Shown here: positions 6,098 through 18,682 of the stretch, piece after piece
Layout: each line of letters opens with the position of its first letter
Position numbering within the stretch: the stretch's first letter is position 1
Source of the DNA: a virus
Reading direction: 5' to 3' (one strand)
Length of the DNA stretch: 26,693 bases
IMG/VR virus record: IMGVR_UViG_3300042486_000027
Span: 1-26,693 of that record
Position numbers and translations under genes: made by a program
Notes under the pieces: generated by a model
Told to the model about the DNA's origin: nothing
Seen by the model: only the letters and a program-made list of their open reading frames with translations
Databases searched by the model: none

Positions 6098-6634
6098 TTA
6101 TTTCCTTCTTATAATTTTATTCTTTTTGCGCCACTTCTTCTGAGCAGCTTTTGAAACTCCAGGTTCCGCTTGGTTTGGAATACTTGGATTATTTATACCG
6201 ATACCAGCAATAGCACCGCCACCGACGCCCATTTCTTCGGCGACATATTCTTTAAATGACAACATTGTATCAGATTCCAATTGTTCTGCGAGAGATTTAG
6301 TTTCGTCTTGTTCCATTGTCATATAAAAAATTTCTTCCAGAATGTCTTCATCATACTCAGCGTTTTCTTTAACAAGTGCTATAGCAGCAGCAAATGACAG
6401 GAATCGTTTATTTTCAAATGGAACCTTTTCTATAATTCGCTTCAACTTAAAAACCATACGGTGTAGAAGAGTATATGATTCTCTTTCTTCTTCTGTCGCG
6501 AGATCTTGTTCTTTCTTAATGACAGCGCCATGCGCATCAATAATACCGAGACGATATGCATCAGTATCAGTAAATGCTGTTGTCAACATACGTAAGATAC
6601 GATATGTTATGATTGCATCGACAAATCTTGCCAT
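6098..6634 (-). CDS. Conserved phage protein, possibly virion-associated, 178 aa
   Basis: The start (MARFVDAIITYRILRMLTTA) followed by FTDTDAYRLGIIDAHGAVIK and a helical LLHRMVFKLKRIIEKVP segment is a pattern I recall from many T4-like marine phages, where it is annotated as a hypothetical or structural protein. The protein is mostly helical, with a Gly-rich stretch (GVGGGAIAGIGI) and a strongly basic tail (KAAQKKWRKKNKIIRRK), which could bind nucleic acid. Its ATG overlaps the upstream TAA as TAATG with GAGGGA before it. It is co-transcribed with virion and lysis genes, so late expression is likely. No catalytic motif is visible. Confidence 0.72.
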   Translation of the reverse strand: MARFVDAIITYRILRMLTTAFTDTDAYRLGIIDAHGAVIKKEQDLATEEERESYTLLHRMVFKLKRIIEKVPFENKRFLSFAAAIALVKENAEYDEDILEEIFYMTMEQDETKSLAEQLESDTMLSFKEYVAEEMGVGGGAIAGIGINNPSIPNQAEPGVSKAAQKKWRKKNKIIRRK

Positions 6635-7455: not shown

Positions 7456-9009
7456 TTATGCGTCTGGGAATTCAATATCATCAGCAGCATCGCTGGATGC
7501 AATAGCATTCTTAGAGAGTGCTACAAGAACTTCGTGCTTCACACGACCAGCGTTAGCACCAGTTCCAACTGTACGCAGCACCCAACCAGAGTGAGCGGCA
7601 GAAGTACCAGTTTCGCCAGTACCCTTAGCAGCAGTTGCAGTTGCTTGATCAGCAGATGCTTGGATTTCGAAGTACTGAGCATTGTTACCCGTGCCCGAGA
7701 TCAGAACGATTGTAAATGGTGTGTATGTTAGACCAGTAGGCGTACCAGCAGTAGTTGTGAGTGCGCCTCCAGCTTCAGTGGTTAGTGTAAAACCAGTTAC
7801 GGATGGCGAAGTACCAGTAACAGCAGAAACAGTATAGATAGTTCCTGTTGCATAATCAGTAATAGTACCAGTTCCACCTAGTGTACCAGTAATTCTAATA
7901 CGATCACCAGCTGCTAGAGTTGTTGCGGTGCAAGTAAACTCACCAGCAGTACCAGAGATAGCAACACCAGCAAGAGCAGTACGACCAGCGGCAGCAGACT
8001 CCGATGCAGCCAAACGGAACAGACCAGTTGTAAACCCTAGAGCGGATACGAAATACGCAGTATCATTAACTAATCCAGTAGCAGAAGCACCACCACCATT
8101 GAAATACTTAACTGATTCCGCAGCAACTAAACCATGAGTGGCATAAGTAAACTTCTCTTCAGCAATAGTAACAGCAGATGTTAGAATAGTGCGCTTTGGT
8201 TTTGCAATAGCAACAGTTGGCACAGTTTCATATGAAGAACCAGTATTTGTTACTGCGACTGCCGATACTAATCCACCTGAGACGGAAGCAGTTGCAGCAG
8301 CAGAAGAACCCCCACCACCAGAGAAGGTAACTGCAGGAACTTCGAGGTAACGTGTGCCACCTTGAATTAGTGCAACCGAGGCAACATTGTCACCACCAGC
8401 AGCGATTTCAGTGTTGTCAACACCAAAGACTTGAGTTGACTGGAAATTCGCTGTTGAAACCGAAGCAACAGATGTTGGTTTTTCGCTGATTGTATACTCT
8501 TGAGCAGAGAATACAGTAAGAACTGATCCTGGATTCGCATTAATTACCGTAGCAACTGTGTCACTAGCAACAGCAGTAGCAATCATTTCCTGATCACCTA
8601 CACGAACAACATCACCAACTGCAAGAGCAGGATCGAAGTTAGTTCCGTCACCTGTTAGAGTAGCACGACCGTAATCTAGACTTAGTGTGAAGGTATGTGA
8701 AGCACCAACGCCATCAGTAGAGGCAATGATAGTTGGAAAATTGTGAAGTGCATTTGCTTCCGTTGTTGCAACACTGAAAGTATTGGTAGTAACATTAGTT
8801 ACAAAATATGTGTCACCATCAGTCAAACCGACTACTTGAGTGCCGCCGCCATCTGAATAATCTACAGGATCACCAAGTTGGAATGGATGTGCAGCAGAAG
8901 TATATACTCCAGCAGCATGTCCAGTTGCACCATTGAATGTGATAGCAGGTGCAGTAAGAGTTACCGTTCCTGCCGATGTTTTATCGTCTTTATTACCCCA
9001 TGCGGACAT
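7456..9009 (-). CDS. Large beta-repeat virion structural protein, 517 aa
   Basis: The start MSAWGNKDDKTSAGTVTLTA and the end (HSGWVLRTVGTGANAGRVKHE, shortened here) are signatures I recall from structural proteins of T4-like marine phages. The body is low in charge and built from repeats. One type recurs at residues 34-86, 287-338 and, weakly, 361-412: a turn with H-G/P, a GGG loop, GL-x-[DN]-x-T/A-YFV, then F-x-[LV]-A-x-[ST]-E. A second type at 217-268 is GGTRYLEVPAVTFSGGGGSS followed by GSSYETVPTVAI, a Gly-rich beta motif common in adhesins and fibres. A decoration or fibre role is likely. GGGAGA lies before the ATG, which abuts the end of the upstream gene. Confidence 0.8.
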   Translation of the reverse strand: MSAWGNKDDKTSAGTVTLTAPAITFNGATGHAAGVYTSAAHPFQLGDPVDYSDGGGTQVVGLTDGDTYFVTNVTTNTFSVATTEANALHNFPTIIASTDGVGASHTFTLSLDYGRATLTGDGTNFDPALAVGDVVRVGDQEMIATAVASDTVATVINANPGSVLTVFSAQEYTISEKPTSVASVSTANFQSTQVFGVDNTEIAAGGDNVASVALIQGGTRYLEVPAVTFSGGGGSSAAATASVSGGLVSAVAVTNTGSSYETVPTVAIAKPKRTILTSAVTIAEEKFTYATHGLVAAESVKYFNGGGASATGLVNDTAYFVSALGFTTGLFRLAASESAAAGRTALAGVAISGTAGEFTCTATTLAAGDRIRITGTLGGTGTITDYATGTIYTVSAVTGTSPSVTGFTLTTEAGGALTTTAGTPTGLTYTPFTIVLISGTGNNAQYFEIQASADQATATAAKGTGETGTSAAHSGWVLRTVGTGANAGRVKHEVLVALSKNAIASSDAADDIEFPDA

Positions 9010-11039
9010 TAATTGTCTCCCTTTTTAAATTCTTGATCTACGTGGTTGAAAAATTCTTTTCTCTTTTCTTCACCAAGTTCCGAGGGAGACTTGATGTTAT
9101 AATGTTCTAGTGCAGCATCGAACGTGTTCTTGTATGTCTCGTTCATTGACTTTACTGCATCAATATCTTCTTTAGTTAGTTTCTTGACTGCCATTGAAAT
9201 ACCCTTATGACGCTTCGACAACTTCTTTTCGAATCGACCTGATGGACTGCCAACACCAGCTTCTCTGTATCCTTGCCTCCAAGAAGTCGTGTCAATGGAG
9301 TCTTTTGCTTTGTTGATGTAGCGACCTGCAGTTGCTTTCGAGATCTCATCGACTTGCTCGACTTCTTCTGTAGCAGGAACGCGAACATATTTAGAACCTG
9401 GCTTAGCTGTATACTTACGAACAGCGATATCGGTCCCACGCATACGCTTGGTCATTCTGTCATAATCGCCAGTTTCACGAGCCTTAACATCGTCTTTCTT
9501 ATTTGCAGAGAGATACTTCAATGCAGCATCCTTTGAGATCTCATCGATATTCTCGACTTCTTCTTTGGTAAACTTACCATTGACAAGGTTACCGTGAATG
9601 CGTTGAAAATTGCGCTGGTCAGCTCTCAATGCCGATTTGTATCCTTTCATTCTCTTATTATAATGACGGTCATCATCGTTATCATCTGCATCGCGAATCT
9701 CGCGCCATGCTTTGTCTTTATAGTTAATCAGAGTTTTATTTGAAAGTTCATCGATTGATTCGACTTCTTCTTTATTATACCGTTTTAGAAATTCATTAGC
9801 GTGCTTAATAGCAGCTGCTTTTTTTTGCATTGCTTTCTCAGCATCGAATGTTTTTTGCCATCCTTCTTGACGCTTACGTATACGTTCAGCATCACCCTTC
9901 TCAGAATAATCAGCTTCTTCTTTCACGCCACTAGCACGTTCGCGGGTTTTCTTAGAATCTTCCATGGACTTCTTTGTCACGCGAGTCGCCTTCAGTTCAG
10001 CTTCAAGATCCGGATCGATTTCTTCTTTCATACCAGCATTCAGTTTTTTGGCATGAGCATGTGCAGCCTTGTGCTGGTCAGGAGATGTTTGCTTTGATTG
10101 GGTGTCTCCATAAGGAAACGACTTGACAACCTTTGATGTCATCAATGCCTGACCCATCGCATCTTTTTTCCCTGTGGGAATTTTTTCGTTGACATGATGT
10201 GCATTATTAGCAGTGTGAACAAAATATGTTGCTTCTTCGAGATCGACTTCCTCAGTCTGAGATGCCTTTAGTGCAGCAGCAGTTGGTGCGCCTTCGCTTC
10301 CAGGTTTACGCATACGCTCACCTGAACCACCCTTAATGCGCTTACGCTTGGCATGAATGTTATCCCACAGTCCACGCTTTTCTTCGATTGTTTCTTCGTT
10401 GGTTTCTTTAGTGGACGAAAACTTCTTTACTGCAGATGATGCAGCGGCAGATCCAGCGGCACCAGCGATGGCACGAGTAGCAACACCAGCACCTGCGTTT
10501 TTAGCAAGTTTTGATGCAATCATTCTACCTGCTACTCCTGCTAATGCAGCATATTCATTTATAGTTTCTTCGCTCATCTCGCCTTGCATATAGTTGCTGG
10601 CGGTCGAGATGTAATCTTCTGCGAGAGTGATTTTCGACTGAACCCATTCAGGAAGGTTGGTGTCATCAGAAAGCATATCATGCATACGTTGCGAGTTAGC
10701 AATGATTGACTTCAGTTGACCCATTGCCATGTCACCTTCGTAGTCATACTCTGTCTTTTCTTTTGCTTCAGTAGCATAAGTTTTAGCACCAGCACGAGCA
10801 CGATTGAAGATGGCATCGTCACCAAGAACAATAAACATCATCGAGTTAATGAAGTTTGCCATGACATCACGCTCAGCACCCTGAAGTGTCATACCACCCT
10901 GTACCTTGACAATTGCCTTGCGAAGAATCGGAATGGTATTCGCTGGCATCAGACCAGCGCGAACTAGTTGCTGAAGACGACCATCTAAATCGTGCGATTC
11001 AGCAATGACAGTATCTCTGATTGTTTTTTCTAGACTCAT
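9009..11039 (-). CDS. Large modular virion-type protein with EEVE repeats, 676 aa
   Basis: I set the start at the ATG at 11039 (MSLEKTIRDTVIAES) because AGAGGAAT precedes it and a TATAAATA late promoter lies 24 nt upstream; an earlier in-frame ATG at 11111 falls inside the Dps gene. Residues 1-160 form a helical domain; 160-205 is Ala-rich and hydrophobic (AGVAGRMIASKLAK). From 210 on the chain is charged and modular. Three related units begin EEVESIDELSNKTLINY (424), EEVENIDEISKDAALKY (493) and EEVEQVDEISKATAGRY (558), each followed by a KRM[KR]G-type helix. The C-terminus (KNTFDAALEHYNIKSPSELG, then EFFNHVDQEF) is a tail I recall from other marine phages. Function is unknown; a head-interior or scaffold-type protein is an inference. 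Confidence 0.78.
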   Translation of the reverse strand: MSLEKTIRDTVIAESHDLDGRLQQLVRAGLMPANTIPILRKAIVKVQGGMTLQGAERDVMANFINSMMFIVLGDDAIFNRARAGAKTYATEAKEKTEYDYEGDMAMGQLKSIIANSQRMHDMLSDDTNLPEWVQSKITLAEDYISTASNYMQGEMSEETINEYAALAGVAGRMIASKLAKNAGAGVATRAIAGAAGSAAASSAVKKFSSTKETNEETIEEKRGLWDNIHAKRKRIKGGSGERMRKPGSEGAPTAAALKASQTEEVDLEEATYFVHTANNAHHVNEKIPTGKKDAMGQALMTSKVVKSFPYGDTQSKQTSPDQHKAAHAHAKKLNAGMKEEIDPDLEAELKATRVTKKSMEDSKKTRERASGVKEEADYSEKGDAERIRKRQEGWQKTFDAEKAMQKKAAAIKHANEFLKRYNKEEVESIDELSNKTLINYKDKAWREIRDADDNDDDRHYNKRMKGYKSALRADQRNFQRIHGNLVNGKFTKEEVENIDEISKDAALKYLSANKKDDVKARETGDYDRMTKRMRGTDIAVRKYTAKPGSKYVRVPATEEVEQVDEISKATAGRYINKAKDSIDTTSWRQGYREAGVGSPSGRFEKKLSKRHKGISMAVKKLTKEDIDAVKSMNETYKNTFDAALEHYNIKSPSELGEEKRKEFFNHVDQEFKKGDN

Positions 11040-11062: not shown

Positions 11063-11070
11063 TATTTATA
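11063..11070 (-). promoter_or_regulatory. T4-type late promoter TATAAATA
   Basis: TATAAATA followed by TAGAAAAG lies between the stop of the Dps gene and the AGAGGAAT ribosome site of the EEVE-repeat protein, 24 nt from its ATG. This is the full T4 late -10 consensus read by RNA polymerase with gp55. It shares TATAAATATAG with the promoter at 14336. Confidence 0.78.
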
Positions 11071-11508
11071 TTATTTTGAGGTCGCTCGTAGCATCCACGC
11101 ATGTTTTGCATGAATATCTAGACGTTCTTCAATAAGATTTACAAGACCCCGATTACCGTCTGCATCAGCAAGTTTATGTGCCGTATTTAATGCTTCAATT
11201 ACGGAAACATTAGCATCGATAAGATCTGCAACCATCCCCGAAACATCAACGCCGTAAATATTTGACTCTTTAACTGTAGTTGTAGATGCCAACTCAGTCA
11301 TATTATATGGTGCATAGTCATCTAATGCACGAATCTGTTCGGCGATAACATCTGCAGCAGCGAACAATTCCTGATAGAGATTGGCAAAGAAATCGTGCAA
11401 CTGAGCGAAGTCTTTACCCTCTACATTCCAGTGATGCCCATGTGCTTTGAAATACATCGCGAAAGTATTCGCGAGTACGATCTTCATTGATGTCACTAGT
11501 TCGTCCAT
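11071..11508 (-). CDS. dps: Dps-like ferritin (DNA-binding, iron-oxidising)
   Basis: The 145-residue helical protein has the Dps signature HGHHWNVEGKDFAQLHDFF followed by AAADVIAEQIRALDDYAP. The inter-subunit ferroxidase ligands are all present with family spacing: H26, H38 (12 apart, as H51/H63 in E. coli Dps), D53 and E57 (as D78/E82). Dps dodecamers oxidise Fe2+ with peroxide, store iron and often coat DNA. The C-terminal helix (LNTAHKLADADGNRGLVNLI) closes the four-helix bundle. There is no long Lys-rich N-terminal tail, so DNA coating is less certain than iron oxidation. It lies between a DUF6321-like gene and a virion gene in the late block, so it may protect phage DNA or itself be a virion component. 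Confidence 0.9.
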   Translation of the reverse strand: MDELVTSMKIVLANTFAMYFKAHGHHWNVEGKDFAQLHDFFANLYQELFAAADVIAEQIRALDDYAPYNMTELASTTTVKESNIYGVDVSGMVADLIDANVSVIEALNTAHKLADADGNRGLVNLIEERLDIHAKHAWMLRATSK

Positions 11509-11509
11509 G

Positions 11510-11881
11510 TCAACAATTCCACTTTCTTAATGCTAATGCCTTGCGAGTCGGACGACCCTTCTCATCTTTCATTGGACCTTCTACACCAGACATTCTAGCA
11601 CAGAAACTCTTGCGACGACCTGCTGCCTTACTACCTGCCTTTAACTTAGAAGGAGGAGTAGTTACAGGTGCTTGTAGATTACCACCTTTAGCATTATAAG
11701 CATCGCGACCCTTTTGTGTCAGACCACCAGTAGAGGACTTATGTCCTTTGGCATCAATCGCTGCTTCTTTAATACAAGAACCGTTTGCACAAGGTTTAGT
11801 TCCTGGTTTACGTTTGTAACCAGTCCAACAAGTGCAACCTGTTTTTTCTGTTTCAGCAATAAATTCAGCGAAAGAATGCAT
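11510..11881 (-). CDS. DUF6321-like protein with capsid-targeting-like N-terminus
   Basis: Residues 1-10, MHSFAEFIAE, match the T4 internal-protein capsid-targeting sequence MKTYQEFIAE almost position by position, with a possible prohead-protease cut after E10. A Cys-rich segment follows (CTCWTGYKRKPGTKPCANGS with another Cys), possibly zinc-binding. The C-terminal two-thirds (IDAKGHKSSTGGLTQKGRDA, then SFCARMSGVEGPMKDEKGRP and ALALRKWNC) is the conserved basic block I recall as DUF6321, found in phages and some bacteria, function unknown. Its ATG overlaps the upstream TAA as TAATG. I infer a small basic protein packaged in the head and ejected with DNA. Confidence 0.8.
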   Translation of the reverse strand: MHSFAEFIAETEKTGCTCWTGYKRKPGTKPCANGSCIKEAAIDAKGHKSSTGGLTQKGRDAYNAKGGNLQAPVTTPPSKLKAGSKAAGRRKSFCARMSGVEGPMKDEKGRPTRKALALRKWNC

Positions 11882-14307
11882 TACTTTTTCTTTCTTTTGT
11901 TTCTATTGTTGATTCTTTTGCGATCGATCATGCGCTCTTTTTGTTGAAGGCGAATCGAAAGTCTACCGACCATCGGTGCCATGCGCTTTACCATTCCCTC
12001 TAATCTTGTCTTCTCAGAAGCAGATAGTGAAGAACGATCGCGACCACGAAGCACTCTGCTGTAAACCATGTTACGAGCAGCACGAACGGATCTTGACTTA
12101 ATACGATCAGGAGTTGCAACACGCTTTAGTGCCATGTTTCTTGCAAGATTACGGCGACCCTTTGTTCGCATCATATTAAAACGCTTCTTCAGACGACCTT
12201 GGGGAGTAATACCTTCAGCGATATCCTCATCAGAATCTTCGTAGTTTAGATCTTCGTAATCATAATAGTCAACCAGATCTGCCCACTCAGCATTTTCGAT
12301 TTCAGAAGTAACATCATTTTCGATTGCGACCATATCATATTCATCATGACGATCATCGCTGTTATAATCCAACATGTCATTATGCATTGGAGGAGTAGGA
12401 TAGTTAGCAGGATTGATAGAATCAGTGTTAGGTTTTTCCTGACTAAAGTCAGCCCATTCTTCGTGGATCGCTTTTAAAAATTCTTCATGCGACTTATGAG
12501 CACGGTTTACCAACGATTCTTTTTCGATCGATGACTTCAGACCGTGGTACTTGTTCATAAACTTGTCGTGGTGGTTGGAAGCAATTTCATGCTCTTTACC
12601 ATCATAGAACTTTACCTTGGCATTAATCGACTGAGACTTGTGTAGTTGGTGAACCAGATTCTTAGGGACATCTGCTTCTGCTGCCTTTTTCTTAGCAATA
12701 GTTTTCTTTGCTCTGGCGATTGCCTTTGGATCCGAAAGAACCTTTTGCAATTTTGCTTTAAAATCTTGGCGAGCAATAACACCCCTTGCAGAAATTTCTG
12801 ACAGAGTTTCTTCTTTCTGAATACCGCCAATATATCGTGTCGGGACATCATCGTAACGAGCATCGAATGTCGGAATCTTTTTCGCAGCAAGACCTTCTTG
12901 TCCAGGAGTCGCTGCCGCATACTTCTGACGCAGAGCATCAGTTCCCCATTCGTTGCTCTTGCCGAGTTCTTCAGGAAGAATAGATGACTTGGTAACCTTT
13001 GACTTGAACATCTTGTGATCAACACCGACTCTCTTAGCAGCAACCTTGTGAGCATGAGCAGTGTTCTGCGCCTTAACGTGAACCGAACCAGCAGCGACTG
13101 CTTTACCAGCATGTTGCTTGGGGAAGTCTACCTTCCACATGCCATGCGCTTCTTCGAGTTCTGCTTCTTCTTTGACGGTCTTTAGGCCACTGCGCAGTTC
13201 CTCTGCTTTCTTGCGTTGCCTTTCTGCAACAGCATCCCGAGATCGTTTGATGCTGGCGTTGCGTCTGTCAATAGAATCTTGGTGTTGTTTAGCATAAGGA
13301 TTGGCGTTGCGAGAAGCTTGGTATGCAGCAGAAGGTTGGTATGCTGCTGCTTCTTTCATATTACCTTTGGTGTCAAGTTTAGTTTCTTCAGGTAAACCTT
13401 TTTTGCGTCTTTGAGCAGCGGTGAAGTGATCAGGTGTTCCAGTATCTGGATCCATCTTCAGTTTAGCACCTGCCTTCTTTGCTCTATCCATACGAGCTCT
13501 GGTAAGGTTACGTTCTTTTCTCGCGATAGCACGACCCATTGCTCCTCTAGCACTGCCACGAGGCGATCTATCTTGCAATCCTTTCGGCATATCATTGTCC
13601 TCAACGAGTTCTTCGCTGATTGCTTTCTTAAACTCTGCATGAGAGGCATGTGCCTTGCTCTGTAGTTCTTCTTTATCTGCAGGTTTAAGCGAACGATACT
13701 GATTGATAAACTTCTTAGCATGGTGCGGTGCGATGGTATGCGACTTACCATCCTTAAATTTAACTGCTTTATTGATGCTGACTGCTTTGTAAAGTTGCGA
13801 TACCAAGTGAGGAGTTTTATCTTCATCTGGATCTTCTTTTGATTCGCTGTCATCTTCATCGCGTTTAGTTGGAGCAAGTCCCTTTGAATCGCGACGCAAG
13901 TCTCTACGTGCATCTCCGAATGCTGATGCTTCTCCAAGATCTGCGGTGTCGCATGTCTGGCAGCAGTCTGGAGTGCCACAATTGTCATGTTCAACAATCT
14001 TGGCATTCAATGGTTTGCGAGCTTCTTGCTCGGTTGCTTTCTTGTATGCAACATCCATATCTTTATCTGAATCACTCTCTTGTGGTTTCAGACCAGGATT
14101 TGCATGATAACCATAGTCACCCTCTTCTGGGAATCCATCTCTAGGATAATTCTTAAAGACTGCTTCCTTAACCGTATTCATCGCCTTGCGTGCGAGGTGC
14201 TTGGCAACGTTCTTGATTTCGTTGCCATACTTATCCTTACGCTTCTCGCCTGATCGACGAGTCGGGTTTTTAGGATCTTCTTGCCATGGTGGTGAATCAT
14301 TTTTCAT
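11881..14307 (-). CDS. Very large basic modular late protein with duplicated domain, 808 aa
   Basis: The start MKNDSPPWQ is fixed by GGAGAG before the ATG and a TATAAATA box 29 nt upstream. The chain is highly charged with little hydrophobic core. A Cys cluster (C110-x4-C-C-x2-C119) may bind metal. A domain of about 66 residues is duplicated: residues 167-232 (HLVSQLYKAVSINKAVKFKD, ending in a Glu pair) and 549-616 (KNLVHQLHKSQSINAKVKFY). Between them lie basic helices and short L/I-x-E or EE junctions (TVKEEAELEEA, IQKEETLSEI). Residues 702-808 form an Arg/Lys-rich tail (GRLKKRFNMMRTKGRRNLAR) that recurs in other marine phages as I recall. It is probably a head-interior, DNA-contacting protein or a polyprotein cut by the prohead protease; both are inferences. 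Confidence 0.78.
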   Translation of the reverse strand: MKNDSPPWQEDPKNPTRRSGEKRKDKYGNEIKNVAKHLARKAMNTVKEAVFKNYPRDGFPEEGDYGYHANPGLKPQESDSDKDMDVAYKKATEQEARKPLNAKIVEHDNCGTPDCCQTCDTADLGEASAFGDARRDLRRDSKGLAPTKRDEDDSESKEDPDEDKTPHLVSQLYKAVSINKAVKFKDGKSHTIAPHHAKKFINQYRSLKPADKEELQSKAHASHAEFKKAISEELVEDNDMPKGLQDRSPRGSARGAMGRAIARKERNLTRARMDRAKKAGAKLKMDPDTGTPDHFTAAQRRKKGLPEETKLDTKGNMKEAAAYQPSAAYQASRNANPYAKQHQDSIDRRNASIKRSRDAVAERQRKKAEELRSGLKTVKEEAELEEAHGMWKVDFPKQHAGKAVAAGSVHVKAQNTAHAHKVAAKRVGVDHKMFKSKVTKSSILPEELGKSNEWGTDALRQKYAAATPGQEGLAAKKIPTFDARYDDVPTRYIGGIQKEETLSEISARGVIARQDFKAKLQKVLSDPKAIARAKKTIAKKKAAEADVPKNLVHQLHKSQSINAKVKFYDGKEHEIASNHHDKFMNKYHGLKSSIEKESLVNRAHKSHEEFLKAIHEEWADFSQEKPNTDSINPANYPTPPMHNDMLDYNSDDRHDEYDMVAIENDVTSEIENAEWADLVDYYDYEDLNYEDSDEDIAEGITPQGRLKKRFNMMRTKGRRNLARNMALKRVATPDRIKSRSVRAARNMVYSRVLRGRDRSSLSASEKTRLEGMVKRMAPMVGRLSIRLQQKERMIDRKRINNRNKRKKK

Positions 14308-14335
14308 GTTTGGGTTACTCTCCAGTCGTTTCCTA

Positions 14336-14343
14336 TATTTATA
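14336..14343 (-). promoter_or_regulatory. T4-type late promoter TATAAATA
   Basis: TATAAATATAGGAAACGAC followed by the ribosome site GGAGAG lies in the 40-nt gap before the ATG at 14307. The box is the exact T4 late -10 consensus and shares its 3' extension TATAG with the box at 11063. Confidence 0.8.
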
Positions 14344-14347
14344 ATAA

Positions 14348-15439
14348 TTACTGCTTGTATTTAAAATCGCACATCAAACGACTTGGAAACCCTTCTTTCC
14401 CCATCGAATCTCGTATGTTTAATTTGAATTCATACTTAGGACTGTCAATTACAATATCAATTCTTTTACCCTTACCAGTTTTACCACCATAATAGATAGT
14501 TTGTGACATAGCATTTGCGGCAGATCGCATATAGATTTCATCGACTTTATATGATTTAATTTTCCCAGGAAATTTATGGATAACGTGGTATCCATGCCCA
14601 ATACCAGATTCCAGTAGAGTCTTTAATCCAAGTAAATTAGGAGAAACTACTGGCACAACTTCACCCTTACCAGTCCCATTAAAGATATCGCAGAATTTTT
14701 GATGGTCAATCTTAAATAAATCCAGTAGTGCCCGACCATTTTTATTTGTAATTGAACCTGATTGAATTTCTTTCTTGGTAAGAATAGTTTGAACGCCAAC
14801 ATTAAAGAACGTAACAGTGCTCGCAAATTTCAAACTGAGAAATAATGTCCGTGGAATGGCATTCTTATCTTCCCACGTCACAGTAATATCAGTTACTGCA
14901 GCACCAATATCGTTACCAACTCCTTTGGTATTAGTCAATTTAATTCCACTAATAAATGACAACGGTCTTTTGGTATTATCGCCACCAACTGGATCAACCT
15001 TGAAATCAGAACCTTGTCCAATACCATACGTTTTATCTAGACCTTGGATGGCTTCTAGGATCATTCTATCCATACCAGCAGACTCGGGATCACTGCGCCA
15101 GTCGGTTAATGCTTGGGTAAATTGATCTTCGAAAGCATTGCCGCGATTTTTAGCACCTCTGTTGCCAGAGGAACCGTCTCCAAATTTTACTTTAAATGGT
15201 TGCTTAACTCCAGACTGAGTTAAGATTTGCTGCTCGGTAAGAGAACCTTTTATAGCACGGACGACATTTATTTTAGGTACAGCGGGATCGATATTAATCG
15301 GAGTATCGATCTTCGGATATTTTTTACGCAGAAAATTAAATACTGCTTTACAATTATCGCGATACACTTGGGTGTGCTTTGGACCTTTCAGAGCCGAATC
15401 AATATCTTGCTCTGATGTTGGGAAAAGATTATACGCCAT
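14348..15439 (-). CDS. Unknown late protein, 363 aa, weak nuclease-like features
   Basis: I do not recognise this protein with confidence. It is a soluble alpha/beta protein without signal peptide or membrane span. Residues 100-113 (GNAFEDQFTQALTD) followed much later by AVTDITVTWED (D184) and RTLFLSLKFAST (K204) vaguely follow the helix-strand-strand layout of PD-(D/E)XK nucleases. However, the residue two before K204 is Ser rather than Asp/Glu, so the active site would be incomplete. The end is basic (NIRDSMGKEGFPSRLMCDFK). Its start overlaps the TAA of the Rz gene as TAATG, and it precedes the late promoter at 14336. Late expression is likely; function is open. Confidence 0.72.
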   Translation of the reverse strand: MAYNLFPTSEQDIDSALKGPKHTQVYRDNCKAVFNFLRKKYPKIDTPINIDPAVPKINVVRAIKGSLTEQQILTQSGVKQPFKVKFGDGSSGNRGAKNRGNAFEDQFTQALTDWRSDPESAGMDRMILEAIQGLDKTYGIGQGSDFKVDPVGGDNTKRPLSFISGIKLTNTKGVGNDIGAAVTDITVTWEDKNAIPRTLFLSLKFASTVTFFNVGVQTILTKKEIQSGSITNKNGRALLDLFKIDHQKFCDIFNGTGKGEVVPVVSPNLLGLKTLLESGIGHGYHVIHKFPGKIKSYKVDEIYMRSAANAMSQTIYYGGKTGKGKRIDIVIDSPKYEFKLNIRDSMGKEGFPSRLMCDFKYKQ

Positions 15440-15957
15440 TACTTCTTTTTCTTCTCTTTCTTTGCCATCTCATCGATTGCTGTCTTGTTGTCAGAAATCC
15501 ACTTTTGTAGCGAGATCAGTTGCTGGGCGTTTTGCTCGCATCTGGAGTAGTTGTTGAAGATGGTGAGGAGGGCTTCATTGTCTTTAATTCCTGAGGGGCT
15601 CGCATCAGAACTTCTGGTGGGGTCGGCATCACTGGATGTGGCACTAGTGTCGTGGAGGAACACCCAACCATTAGACAACTCAAACTGAGCAGGGACAACG
15701 TTCGTAGCGATATCGCGGTATACATATTCTTTTTCCTTGATTATATTAGTTCTATCAACATACTCGGTAATAACTTTACCAGAGATTTCGGCATTTTTCT
15801 TTTCGAGGACAGCAATCTGTTCACTCTTTTTTGCAGCGAATCTTTGAAGTTCTGCTTCGGCATATGCAGATCCCTTCATATATCCATATACAAACACTCC
15901 AAGAATGAGTGCTGCTGCTGCTAATAATTTATACGGGAGAGGGATCATACCAAACAT
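15439..15957 (-). CDS. Rz: Rz-like inner-membrane spanin
   Basis: The 172-residue protein has one N-terminal membrane span (about residues 8-27, YKLLAAAALILGVFVYGYMK) and a periplasmic coiled-coil (AELQRFAAKKSEQIAVLEKK), then a segment GIKDNEALLTIFNNYSRCEQ with one Cys and a Lys-rich end. This is the layout of i-spanins, which bridge to an outer-membrane lipoprotein and fuse the two membranes in the last step of lysis of Gram-negative cells. The decisive support is the nested Rz1 lipoprotein frame at 15516-15725. AGGAAT lies before the ATG. The upstream gene is a two-span holin candidate. Confidence 0.88.
   Translation of the reverse strand: MFGMIPLPYKLLAAAALILGVFVYGYMKGSAYAEAELQRFAAKKSEQIAVLEKKNAEISGKVITEYVDRTNIIKEKEYVYRDIATNVVPAQFELSNGWVFLHDTSATSSDADPTRSSDASPSGIKDNEALLTIFNNYSRCEQNAQQLISLQKWISDNKTAIDEMAKKEKKKK
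15516..15725 (-). CDS. Rz1: Rz1-like outer-membrane spanin lipoprotein, nested in Rz in another frame
   Basis: This 69-residue frame lies wholly inside the Rz gene. It has a lipoprotein signal peptide ending in a lipobox, MYTAISLRTLSLLSLSCLMV then G-C, with lipidation expected on Cys22. The mature part is short and Pro-rich (TTLVPHPVMPTPPEVLM), as in Rz1 o-spanins. AAGGA lies 8-9 nt before its ATG. Nested Rz/Rz1 pairs are known from lambda and many phages of Gram-negative bacteria. Signal peptide, lipobox, proline content, ribosome site and position within an Rz-like gene together make a chance shadow frame unlikely. Confidence 0.9.
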   Translation of the reverse strand: MYTAISLRTLSLLSLSCLMVGCSSTTLVPHPVMPTPPEVLMRAPQELKTMKPSSPSSTTTPDASKTPSN

Positions 15958-15967
15958 ATTTAATTCC

Positions 15968-16219
15968 TTATTCTTCTTCGTCGGATTTCTTAGTTGGTTT
16001 CTTCGGAGCGAACTTCTCTACGCCAGTAATACCAAGAGTACCGATGACAATATACATTACACCGTTGAAGATAAACTCTTCAATTGTGAAGGACCAGAAT
16101 AGATTCGCGATAAAACCGATAGCAATAAGAATAGTAGCAACAACAGCAATCATACGCTTAGTTGATGGATTGCCATTTTCTGACATCATATCTTTAAGAT
16201 ATGTTAGAAATTTGCCCAT
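15968..16219 (-). CDS. Two-span holin candidate, 83 aa
   Basis: The protein has two hydrophobic segments, about residues 22-42 (RMIAVVATILIAIGFIANLF) and 50-67 (FIFNGVMYIVIGTLGITGVE), a short polar N-terminus and a charged C-terminal tail (KKPTKKSDEEE). Size, topology and charged tail fit class II-like holins, and it lies directly upstream of the Rz/Rz1 pair. Holins form membrane lesions that let cytoplasmic endolysin reach the wall. The endolysin gene itself is about 10 kb away, in the same direction. AAGG lies about 10 nt before the ATG. Confidence 0.75.
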   Translation of the reverse strand: MGKFLTYLKDMMSENGNPSTKRMIAVVATILIAIGFIANLFWSFTIEEFIFNGVMYIVIGTLGITGVEKFAPKKPTKKSDEEE

Positions 16220-16225
16220 GGGTTA

Positions 16226-17686
16226 TTACCTTTTTAATTTGACTTTACCAGCGAGGATTCCAACTCTTGATCGATCCATAATACTTTTAGATTCTGCATC
16301 AGAGAAGTTAGAACCGAGGTGGTGTTTGTATGTCTTTTCATCACCCGATGCTGCTGCGTTGCGCATCTTTGTTCCTGACATACCGTGTGAACGGTTTTCA
16401 TCTTTCGGGTAGTGTATTTCTACTCTATGTGGTTTCTCACCATTCAGTTCCGGAATCTTTCCAGTTTCAATCGAATTCTTTAAACGCTCTGCCATTTCCT
16501 TACGATCGTGTCCGAAGTGAAGATGTAATACTTTCTTTGGACCACTCAACGAATGAAATGCACGACCTACCGTTTGACCAGCAGACTTTTCGACCTTGAA
16601 TTCAGCAGCACCGTTTGACTGTTTATTAGCAATATGTTCTCTTTCTTTATCAGAAAACACATCTGACTTACCAGACAAACCAACATGCTTCTTACCAGCG
16701 CCCATTCCACCAACAACATCAATATGATGACCCATATGTGTATGAGGGGATGCACCCATAAATGCTACATGAGCATGTTGTTCTGCTTCTTCCTCAATGT
16801 ATGACTCGTTGGCACGATCGCTAACACCAAGGTGAGTTCGCAGATGCTCAAGAGCAGAACCGTGGTCCATACCTTTCTTGGTAGCAACACCTGCTTTAAA
16901 TTTGTCATATATTTCTTGGTGTTGTGACTTTGGAATATGCTTCTTGATTAATTCTGCCACACCCTTAAATGAATCAATCTTTTTGTGGTCTGCAGTAGCA
17001 CCAAATAGTTGTTTCGATATCTCATCTGGATGCTGAACACCAACATCATTTTCATCTGATCTAGAACGCAGACCATGTGAGATAGAAAACTTATGCGTTG
17101 ACCCTGCCGCTGCATTGATAAGCATCTTGTGATGCACACCTTTAATACCTGCTTTGGTATCTTCCCAACTAGAAGAATGAAGGAACCTATCAGTTTCAGA
17201 TCCAGGATTATGAACACCCTCAAAATCAAATTGATGGTGCTCACCATTCTCGTGGCGCATTACTGCAGAGATTTCGTTACCGTGCTTTTTAGTTCCAGCG
17301 ACGGTATAGTTACCAAACTTTTTACCTGTTGCAAGAGTTGATGCTATTTTGTCTTTATGATCATGACTGACCTGAACGTCGACATCGCCGACATGTGGTT
17401 TATATCTGGCAAATTCGTGGTCGTCAATATGGTTTCCCATAAAATCACGCGAAGAACCTGAATAGACATGACCTGTTTTTAGTTTTTCTTTATCGGCACC
17501 AAATAGATGCTCGCCATGTTCTTTATGAAACGCATCGTGAATCTTACTCAGCGCTGTGTGAACATCTGTTCTACGTGCTGCTCTGGTATCATGTTGAATT
17601 GGGAATGGAGCAGCAGAAGTTTCTTGCCCCTTTGGACCAACTTTAATGTTTCCACCTTCGTTTAGAAAGAACTTAAAACTTTTCAT
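16226..17686 (-). CDS. Double nucleotidyltransferase (Pol-beta-like plus HxGH cytidylyltransferase-like) with capsid-targeting-like N-terminus
   Basis: Residues 1-10, MKSFKFFLNE, fit the T4 capsid-targeting pattern. Residues 40-200 resemble a Pol-beta-type nucleotidyltransferase: GSS at 77-79, then GDVDVQV with D101 and D103, and a possible third Asp in HHQFDFEG (D154). Residues 305-450 resemble the HxGH/ISxTxxR nucleotidylyltransferase superfamily (NMNAT, CTP transferases): FMGASPHTHMGHHID (H317-x-G-H320) and GMSGTKMRN (S437 to R442). The protein is unusually His-rich. Such domains attach NMPs to nucleic acid, protein or small molecules; the real substrate is unknown. Its start overlaps the stop of the ligase-like gene as TAATG with GGGAAA before it, so both are made together. 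The domain calls rest on motifs only. Confidence 0.78.
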   Translation of the reverse strand: MKSFKFFLNEGGNIKVGPKGQETSAAPFPIQHDTRAARRTDVHTALSKIHDAFHKEHGEHLFGADKEKLKTGHVYSGSSRDFMGNHIDDHEFARYKPHVGDVDVQVSHDHKDKIASTLATGKKFGNYTVAGTKKHGNEISAVMRHENGEHHQFDFEGVHNPGSETDRFLHSSSWEDTKAGIKGVHHKMLINAAAGSTHKFSISHGLRSRSDENDVGVQHPDEISKQLFGATADHKKIDSFKGVAELIKKHIPKSQHQEIYDKFKAGVATKKGMDHGSALEHLRTHLGVSDRANESYIEEEAEQHAHVAFMGASPHTHMGHHIDVVGGMGAGKKHVGLSGKSDVFSDKEREHIANKQSNGAAEFKVEKSAGQTVGRAFHSLSGPKKVLHLHFGHDRKEMAERLKNSIETGKIPELNGEKPHRVEIHYPKDENRSHGMSGTKMRNAAASGDEKTYKHHLGSNFSDAESKSIMDRSRVGILAGKVKLKR

Positions 17687-18648
17687 TATTTTTTCCCAAA
17701 CGATAGATTAGATGAAGACTTCGCTTCTTTGAATTTAGGATTGATTGCCTTGAAACGAGTCGCTTCTGGATTAGCGTCTGATGGGTGAACAACCAGTCCC
17801 TCAGTACCAGATCCAAATTTGTTCTTGATTTTCTTTTCTCCAAGGTGTGTAGAAACCTTAGCACTGACACGCTTTTTGATGTTATTAAACTTTTCAATCT
17901 CGGCGAGTTTTGCTTGTTTGTTCTTGGGAACTGTTCTGGTATTAATCAACCCATGATCGAGTTTATGAAAATCTGCTACTTCATCTTTAACATCGACATG
18001 TGATGGCGTGTGCTTAATAATATCATGATCGAATTTAATATTATCATCTGACAAATTGTTCTTAAAGTGTTCAGGATCGTGTTGCTGATTCGTTGGCATC
18101 CTAGAGTGAATAATAAATGCACCTTGTTTACCCAATCCCTTTGTTGAATAGGAAGTGTGAACAAATTTCACTTCATCTTTCTTGTCTCCAGGACGAGCGA
18201 GCGAGCGATTAAATGCTTCACCGCTGACAGCAACTTCGCCGTGCTTCTCGTAATGTTTCGCTAGATGATTTTGTAGTGCACTGTTTGAGTGAAGAGCATC
18301 ATGGAACTTAGACATTGCTGTTGGACCAGTAGGATCATATTCCTTACCAGTCTCAGATGCTCTACGTTTTGCTCGTTCAATATGTCCTGCACCAGTTCTG
18401 ATTCGATCGCTACCAGAACCTGAGTGCTGAGTGTAGAATCCCTGTTCATCGTGCCCAAACTTAAACGTTTGACCATCGGTCTTTTCAGTTACATGATGGA
18501 TATGGACTTTACCACCCTTAGTGGTTTTCTCGAACTCATCCGTAGACAATGAGGGAGTTTGACCACCTGCAGGTGTGGGTGATGAATGCAGGTGCGGTAA
18601 ACCCTGCCTAATAGATGCTTCAGAGAGATATTGAGTAAATGATAACAT
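17686..18648 (-). CDS. Putative ATP-dependent nucleic-acid ligase with capsid-targeting-like N-terminus
   Basis: I start at the ATG at 18648 (MLSFTQYLSE), which follows the late promoter at 18675 and ACGGGAAT; the longer frame to 18774 crosses the promoter and the hairpin element. Residues 1-10 fit the capsid-targeting pattern. Ligase-superfamily motifs then appear in order: motif I K56-T-D-G59 (HHVTEKTDGQTF), a following FKFGHDEQGFYTQHSGSG strand pair, motif III VAVSGEAF (E144), motif IV EGLVVHP (E283) and motif V RFKAINPKFK (K300). The 320-residue length suits a minimal DNA or RNA ligase. K56 would carry AMP. RNA versus DNA substrate cannot be told. It is the first gene of the late block and couples to the double nucleotidyltransferase. 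Confidence 0.78.
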   Translation of the reverse strand: MLSFTQYLSEASIRQGLPHLHSSPTPAGGQTPSLSTDEFEKTTKGGKVHIHHVTEKTDGQTFKFGHDEQGFYTQHSGSGSDRIRTGAGHIERAKRRASETGKEYDPTGPTAMSKFHDALHSNSALQNHLAKHYEKHGEVAVSGEAFNRSLARPGDKKDEVKFVHTSYSTKGLGKQGAFIIHSRMPTNQQHDPEHFKNNLSDDNIKFDHDIIKHTPSHVDVKDEVADFHKLDHGLINTRTVPKNKQAKLAEIEKFNNIKKRVSAKVSTHLGEKKIKNKFGSGTEGLVVHPSDANPEATRFKAINPKFKEAKSSSNLSFGKK

Positions 18649-18674: not shown

Positions 18675-18682
18675 TATTTATA
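18675..18682 (-). promoter_or_regulatory. T4-type late promoter TATAAATA
   Basis: TATAAATAGAGAGATAC lies 27 nt before the ATG at 18648 and 2 nt after the T-run of the upstream inverted-repeat element. It opens the late block. Confidence 0.75.

Follow-up and report, generated by a model that had tools for sequence, protein, structure and literature searches.

A probable T4-type capsid-targeting N-terminus shared by three otherwise unrelated proteins in an uncultured marine virus

The virus record IMGVR_UViG_3300042486_000027 of IMG/VR, a stretch of 26,693 bases that is referred to here as the window, is from an uncultured marine T4-like virus and carries three proteins with a common ten-residue N-terminus, or tag. 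We consider a T4-type capsid-targeting sequence (CTS) to be the best explanation of this tag, with a probability of about 0.88, and packaging of the three proteins by such a sequence is a well supported prediction from their genes. Capsid targeting of the T4 type had been proposed in the first-pass annotation of the window, and it is supported by the conservation of the functional positions, a protease encoded by a relative, the specificity of the tag for gene starts and an enrichment of tagged proteins in the virions of related phages. The analysis covers the pattern and its conservation, late promoters in the sequence, genes for the protease and the head in a near-identical relative, and the detection of proteins of relatives in virions. 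The tags and the proteins that bear them are as follows.

11852..11881, (-) strand: CTS-like tag MHSFAEFIAE of the DUF6321 protein
17657..17686, (-) strand: CTS-like tag MKSFKFFLNE of the 486-residue protein
18619..18648, (-) strand: CTS-like tag MLSFTQYLSE of the 320-residue ligase-like protein
11510..11881, (-) strand: tagged DUF6321 protein, 123 residues, Pfam DUF6321 E=3e-24
16226..17686, (-) strand: tagged 486-residue protein (protein 2), phrog_19290 E=3e-16 and phrog_3041 cytidyltransferase E=1.5e-4
17686..18648, (-) strand: tagged 320-residue ligase-like protein (protein 3), with invariant KTDG, GEAFN, EGL and RFK stretches

The N-termini at 11881, 17686 and 18648 read as claimed in the first-pass annotation, and the strict pattern M-x-S-F-x-x-[FY]-[IL]-x-E has exactly these three matches in the six frames of the window, all at the starts of the named genes. 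A looser form of the pattern adds a single match, MLSFKEYVAE (6265-), within another gene. When only the T4-derived positions are considered ([FY]4, [FY]7, [IL]8 and E10), the N-terminal composition of the remaining window genes gives a chance expectation of 0.002 among 31 genes, and three were observed (Poisson P about 1.5e-9). Beyond the tag the proteins are mutually unrelated, as had also been stated: one is a DUF6321 protein, one has weak similarity to the cytidyltransferase family at its C-terminus, and one is ligase-like with a KxDG motif.

In bacteriophage T4, mutagenesis of the internal protein IPIII assigns targeting chiefly to residues 4 and 7 and processing to residues 8 and 10, gp21 cleaves after L/I-x-E, and internal proteins bearing the CTS are ejected (PMC9026906). 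The decapeptides of the window proteins agree with IPIII at both the targeting and the processing residues, and the L/I-x-E site of the prohead protease is present in the tags. T4 IPI, IPII and IPIII (CTS MKTYQEFIAE) share several features with the window proteins: the N-terminal tag is ten residues long, aromatic at 4 and 7, with I/L at 8 and E at 10; the mature proteins behind one tag are unrelated; and the phage group has the T4 head module, including the gp21 protease. In the T4 sequence the N-termini of IPII and IPIII fit the tag pattern, and residues 59-65 of gp23, whose propeptide is 65 residues long (PMC5694885), read FGSFLTE. The proposed match to MKTYQEFIAE stands at positions 4, 7, 8 and 10 but not at Ser3: residues 3 and 4 of the T4 sequence are Thr-Tyr, and Ser3 is thus a feature of the window's group that lies outside the T4 match. 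This group prefers Ser3 and Phe4, and whereas T4 cargo is small and basic, the putative window cargo consists of a DUF6321 protein and enzyme-like proteins. Ejection proteins of the giant phages phiKZ and SPN3US likewise have head propeptides that are removed by a gp21-type protease after glutamate, but several of these exceed 100 residues and have another sequence (PMC5694885).

Conservation of the tag follows the same positions. Orthologs of proteins 2 and 3 (59-72% identity) keep F4, F/Y7, I/L/V8 and E10 while residues 2, 3, 5, 6 and 9 vary, giving wordings such as MLSFTQYLSE, MKSFKSFIKE and VIRFKAFLSE, and the alignment of protein 2 shows F4, F7 and E10 as the invariant residues within the decapeptide. 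At one locus (L016) the region after the DUF6321 tag has been exchanged, yet a tag is retained in another wording, MLSFKQYIAE. A 150-kb record (G001) shares about 97% identity with the window in proteins 2 and 3. It has all three tags, that of DUF6321 in the form MHSFAEFVVE, and encodes a further tagged protein, which starts MINFKDYIAE and has a weak match of the HAD type. Both a gp21-type protease (PF03420, E=4.7e-43) and a T4-type head with gp23 (PF07068, E=1e-143) are encoded by this record, in which other open reading frames (ORFs) read, on inspection, as gp17, gp18, gp19, gp20 and gp22; the window fragment ends short of the head region.

The spread of the tag was examined by scanning IMG/VR with a DNA pattern for M-K-x-F-x-x-F-[ILVMF]-x-E, with the same codons in another order as a control. 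Scans were compared by the position of matches rather than by totals, all figures refer to the matches listed, and a match was placed at a gene start when it lay within 40 codons of an upstream stop. Gene-start matches made up 109 of the 111 open tag matches, compared with 30 of 53 in the reordered control and 17 of 43 when the tag pattern was applied to bacterial genomes. The free position 3 was Ser or Thr in 84/109 of the IMG/VR matches, 1/53 of the control and 4/43 of the bacterial matches. By shared 5-mers behind the tag, the 109 tagged proteins fall into 51 groups, with Pfam domains that include CTP_transf_like (17), DUF6267 (8), AAA, adenylate-kinase and zeta-type kinases (about 8) and ATP-grasp (2), together with single matches to DUF6321, DnaJ, SET, GNAT, HicA, WYL_2 and HAD. 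A comparison of start with internal methionines in four genomes, using a loosely defined start zone, gave only a four-fold enrichment (P=0.008). The presence of gp23 on contigs of the tag scan (5/18) and on control contigs (3/18) does not discriminate between the scans, because the contigs are fragmentary and some tag-scan matches are due to chance. Diverged relatives encode two further tagged proteins that lack a Pfam match, L018:2286-3272 (MKNFSSFVTE), just upstream of the ligase-like gene, and L031:7362-7940 (MKSFLTFIEE). Two other tagged proteins from IMG/VR, L096:10529-11047 (no Pfam match) and L113:3736-4149, include the residues YHGT in a stretch reminiscent of ADP-ribosyltransferases, for example T4 Alt.

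Virion proteomes of S-CREM2 (PMC10665884, Table 3; matched to gene starts), S-SCSM1 and S-SZBM1 (PMC9146016) were compared with a broad pattern, M..[FYL]..[FY][ILVMF].E, scored at annotated starts. Tagged proteins detected in S-CREM2 were gp6 (SAM hydrolase), gp13, gp14 (kinase), gp136 and gp154 (cytidylyltransferase); gp12 (annotated as Cas9), with RFASFMAE near its N-terminus, was also detected. The tagged NMNAT of S-SCSM1 was detected, as was SSZBM1_140, in which the sequence MRFRQFIIE is one residue shorter. Two of the virion proteins detected, S-CREM2 gp137 and SSCSM1_29, have DUF6321 as their C-terminal domain. Untagged DUF6267 proteins (S-CREM2 gp87 and SSZBM1_141) are absent from the virion lists, and at least 8 DUF6267 proteins are tagged in IMG/VR. 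The virion-associated cytidylyltransferase/NMNAT-like proteins of cyanomyoviruses (S-CREM2 gp154, S-SCSM1 ORF91, S-SZBM1_140 and T4-GC190 of S-SM1) resemble the window case in being nucleotidylyltransferase-family proteins of T4-like phages; the N-termini read, those of the first three phages, have the tag at or close to the start (MKNFSSFLTE, MKSFLQFLKE and MRFRQFIIE). Protein 2 of the window differs in having an additional N-terminal domain and a weak similarity to the family. The parts of the cyanomyovirus reports that were consulted make no mention of a targeting tag. Another virion protein of S-SCSM1, SSCSM1_93 (L047:42626-42835), has a tag-like C-terminus, RTFKEFLEYIE.

When the three phages were pooled, 6/10 proteins with the broad pattern were detected as against 127/719 genes (18%; P=0.003), and 4/6 with the T4-derived pattern (P=0.010), but the broad pattern was devised after the S-CREM2 N-termini had been viewed and the P values are indicative only. 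The over-representation of tagged proteins in virions is a modest and partly post-hoc statistic, and this late choice of pattern is one of several points that weigh against capsid targeting. The virion evidence comes from three relatives and not from the window phage, whose own virion content we infer, and the window is a fragment without head genes. Four proteins were undetected despite their tags, namely S-CREM2 gp175 (55 residues), SSCSM1_30, SSZBM1_191 and the tagged DUF6321 protein SSZBM1_192; all are of 165 residues or less. The pattern had been offered as a tag for finding ejected effectors; a related pattern is specific to gene starts (109/111 of the listed matches), and of the proteins with the strict pattern only 1/3 were detected in the proteomes (P=0.44). 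The association with virions holds for the T4-derived and broad patterns and not for the exact pattern of the first-pass annotation. The authors of the S-CREM2 study note that such virion proteins could be co-purified (PMC10665884). Finally, a profile comparison of protein 2 with S-CREM2 gp154 by hhalign was not significant, so that the link of protein 2 to a virion-detected family depends on the weak phrog_3041 match.

An alternative which we regard as unlikely is that the tag does recruit proteins to the prohead core, where they would serve assembly or DNA packing and not act as effectors in the next cell. A structural or DNA-packing function would suit the position of DUF6321, which in T7-like phages lies between scaffold and capsid genes (in three of six Autographiviridae, between scaffold/assembly and capsid genes) and in cyanophages downstream of gp16. 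However, most of the recognisable tagged proteins listed in IMG/VR are enzymes (nucleotidylyltransferases, DUF6267 proteins, nucleotide kinases and ATP-grasp proteins), and the T4 internal proteins with the tag are ejected (PMC9026906).

It is very improbable that the common N-terminus serves as a helix for interaction with some other late complex, such as the replisome, tail or membrane, with no connection to the head. Two structure models do contain a short helix at residues 4-10, at low confidence, but the tag is identical to the T4 CTS at the functional positions, tagged relatives are detected in virions, and the DUF6321 proteins of six Autographiviridae, which are T7-like, all start without the tag. 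Heads of the T7 type are not known to use a prohead protease. Chance, or a common stretch with no function, can be practically dismissed: a match of ten residues is short, but only 0.002 were expected, the conserved positions are the functional ones, and 109/111 listed IMG/VR matches lie at gene starts, in about 50 unrelated protein groups.

The T4-type late-promoter sequence TATAAATA occurs four times in the window, always on the coding strand, compared with 1.0 expected, and three of the four lie about 31-36 bp 5' of the ligase-like gene and of genes for proteins of 808 and 676 residues. Among the IMG/VR matches listed, TATAAATA is found within 150 bp upstream of 16/108 tagged genes, compared with 2.7 in shuffles.

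18675..18682, (-) strand: T4-type late promoter TATAAATA, 34 bp 5' of the ligase-like start, with the nucleotidyltransferase-like gene behind
14336..14343, (-) strand: T4-type late promoter TATAAATA, 5' of the 808-residue gene, with the DUF6321 gene behind
11063..11070, (-) strand: T4-type late promoter TATAAATA, 5' of the 676-residue gene
11881..14307, (-) strand: untagged, charged protein of 808 residues, whose stop overlaps the DUF6321 start

Under capsid targeting of the T4 type, the three proteins would be produced late in infection from late-promoter operons, and their tags would bind the prohead core, chiefly by way of aromatic residues 4 and 7, so that the proteins are incorporated in the prohead. 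By analogy with T4, a gp21-type prohead protease would then cut after the [IL]-x-E that ends at residue 10, with loss of the decapeptide, and the mature proteins would remain beside the DNA inside the head until ejection carries them into the next host cell.

This mechanism is already known from T4, and what appears new is the enzyme cargo and the breadth across marine phages. Among openly licensed papers we found none that reports a CTS in cyanophages or in any other T4-like phage from the sea, and none that names DUF6321, which is weak evidence of absence in both cases. We think it fairly likely that the tag is a modular cargo label across marine T4-like phages, by which about 50 unrelated protein groups are delivered into the host with the genome, including nucleotidylyltransferases, DUF6267 ligase-like proteins, adenylate and zeta-type kinases, and proteins with ATP-grasp, HAD, DnaJ, SET and acetyltransferase domains. 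If this is true, gene starts would predict much of the injected proteome in uncultured phages. The tag probably points to proteins that marine phages carry into the cell at infection. Virion proteomes by themselves do not distinguish enzymes that are packaged from those that contaminate the preparation, a limit stated by the authors of the S-CREM2 (PMC10665884) and S-SCSM1 studies themselves. A sequence tag with known determinants would allow the question of which proteins marine phages inject to be tested from genomes, those of uncultured phages included, with a new N-terminus after residue 10 as the readout.

The cargo roles we infer, and the enzyme functions of proteins 2 and 3 are leads. 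The label DUF6321-like given to the first protein is correct (PF19846; 85.8 bits against a curated cut-off of 28.5); it is a probable packaged basic protein, with DNA binding as its likely role. Protein 2 had been called a double nucleotidyltransferase; its C-terminal half has a weak resemblance to HIGH-type nucleotidylyltransferases (phrog_3041 cytidyltransferases), and the N-terminal half has an invariant DVDV motif. It has no Pfam match, and a structure model of middling confidence gave phosphopantetheine adenylyltransferase as its best Foldseek match (E about 0.01), with none below 0.001. Protein 3, termed ligase-like, has motif I KTDG (KxDG) and the collinear EGL and RFK, which are invariant in six orthologs and expected of covalent nucleotidyltransferases, but the Pfam RNA_ligase match, present in 4/6 orthologs (E=0.05-0.07), is below the cut-off. 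The two enzyme-like proteins are likely to act in end-joining or nucleotide transfer at the onset of infection. The model of protein 3 (mean pLDDT 46.7) was too weak for a fold search. Neither protein 2 nor protein 3 had a match in profile searches of the PDB, a tblastn search of phage records with protein 3 gave no match, and exact DNA matches of the window in annotated phages gave nothing useful. Homology of protein 3 to the tagged DUF6267 ligase-like family was rejected (hhalign probability 13%), as the alignment begins in the tag itself. The start of protein 3 is placed at 18648 because of the late promoter upstream and the starts of its orthologs; a longer TTG ORF from 18774 is less likely.

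The 808-residue protein is a possible head-core partner; the cyanophage form of DUF6321 is joined, as the C-terminal domain, to a long charged protein. The looser match MLSFKEYVAE (6236..6265, (-) strand) lies inside a protein of 178 residues (6098-6634), where it may be an internal protease site, and reads MLSFKDFISE in the G001 counterpart. Judged only by eye, the glycine-rich basic module after it is similar to SSCSM1_97, a small virion protein, and to stand-alone ORFs with a tag in L154 and L078. In the 676-residue protein (9009-11039, (-) strand), repeats centred on EEVExIDE[LI]S are possible sites for the prohead protease, and the protein has a weak blastp match (E=0.002) to a G001 protein encoded between gp20 and gp21. 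Between the DUF6321 and 676-residue genes is an untagged Dps/ferritin-like gene (11071-11508, (-) strand; Pfam E=8e-23).

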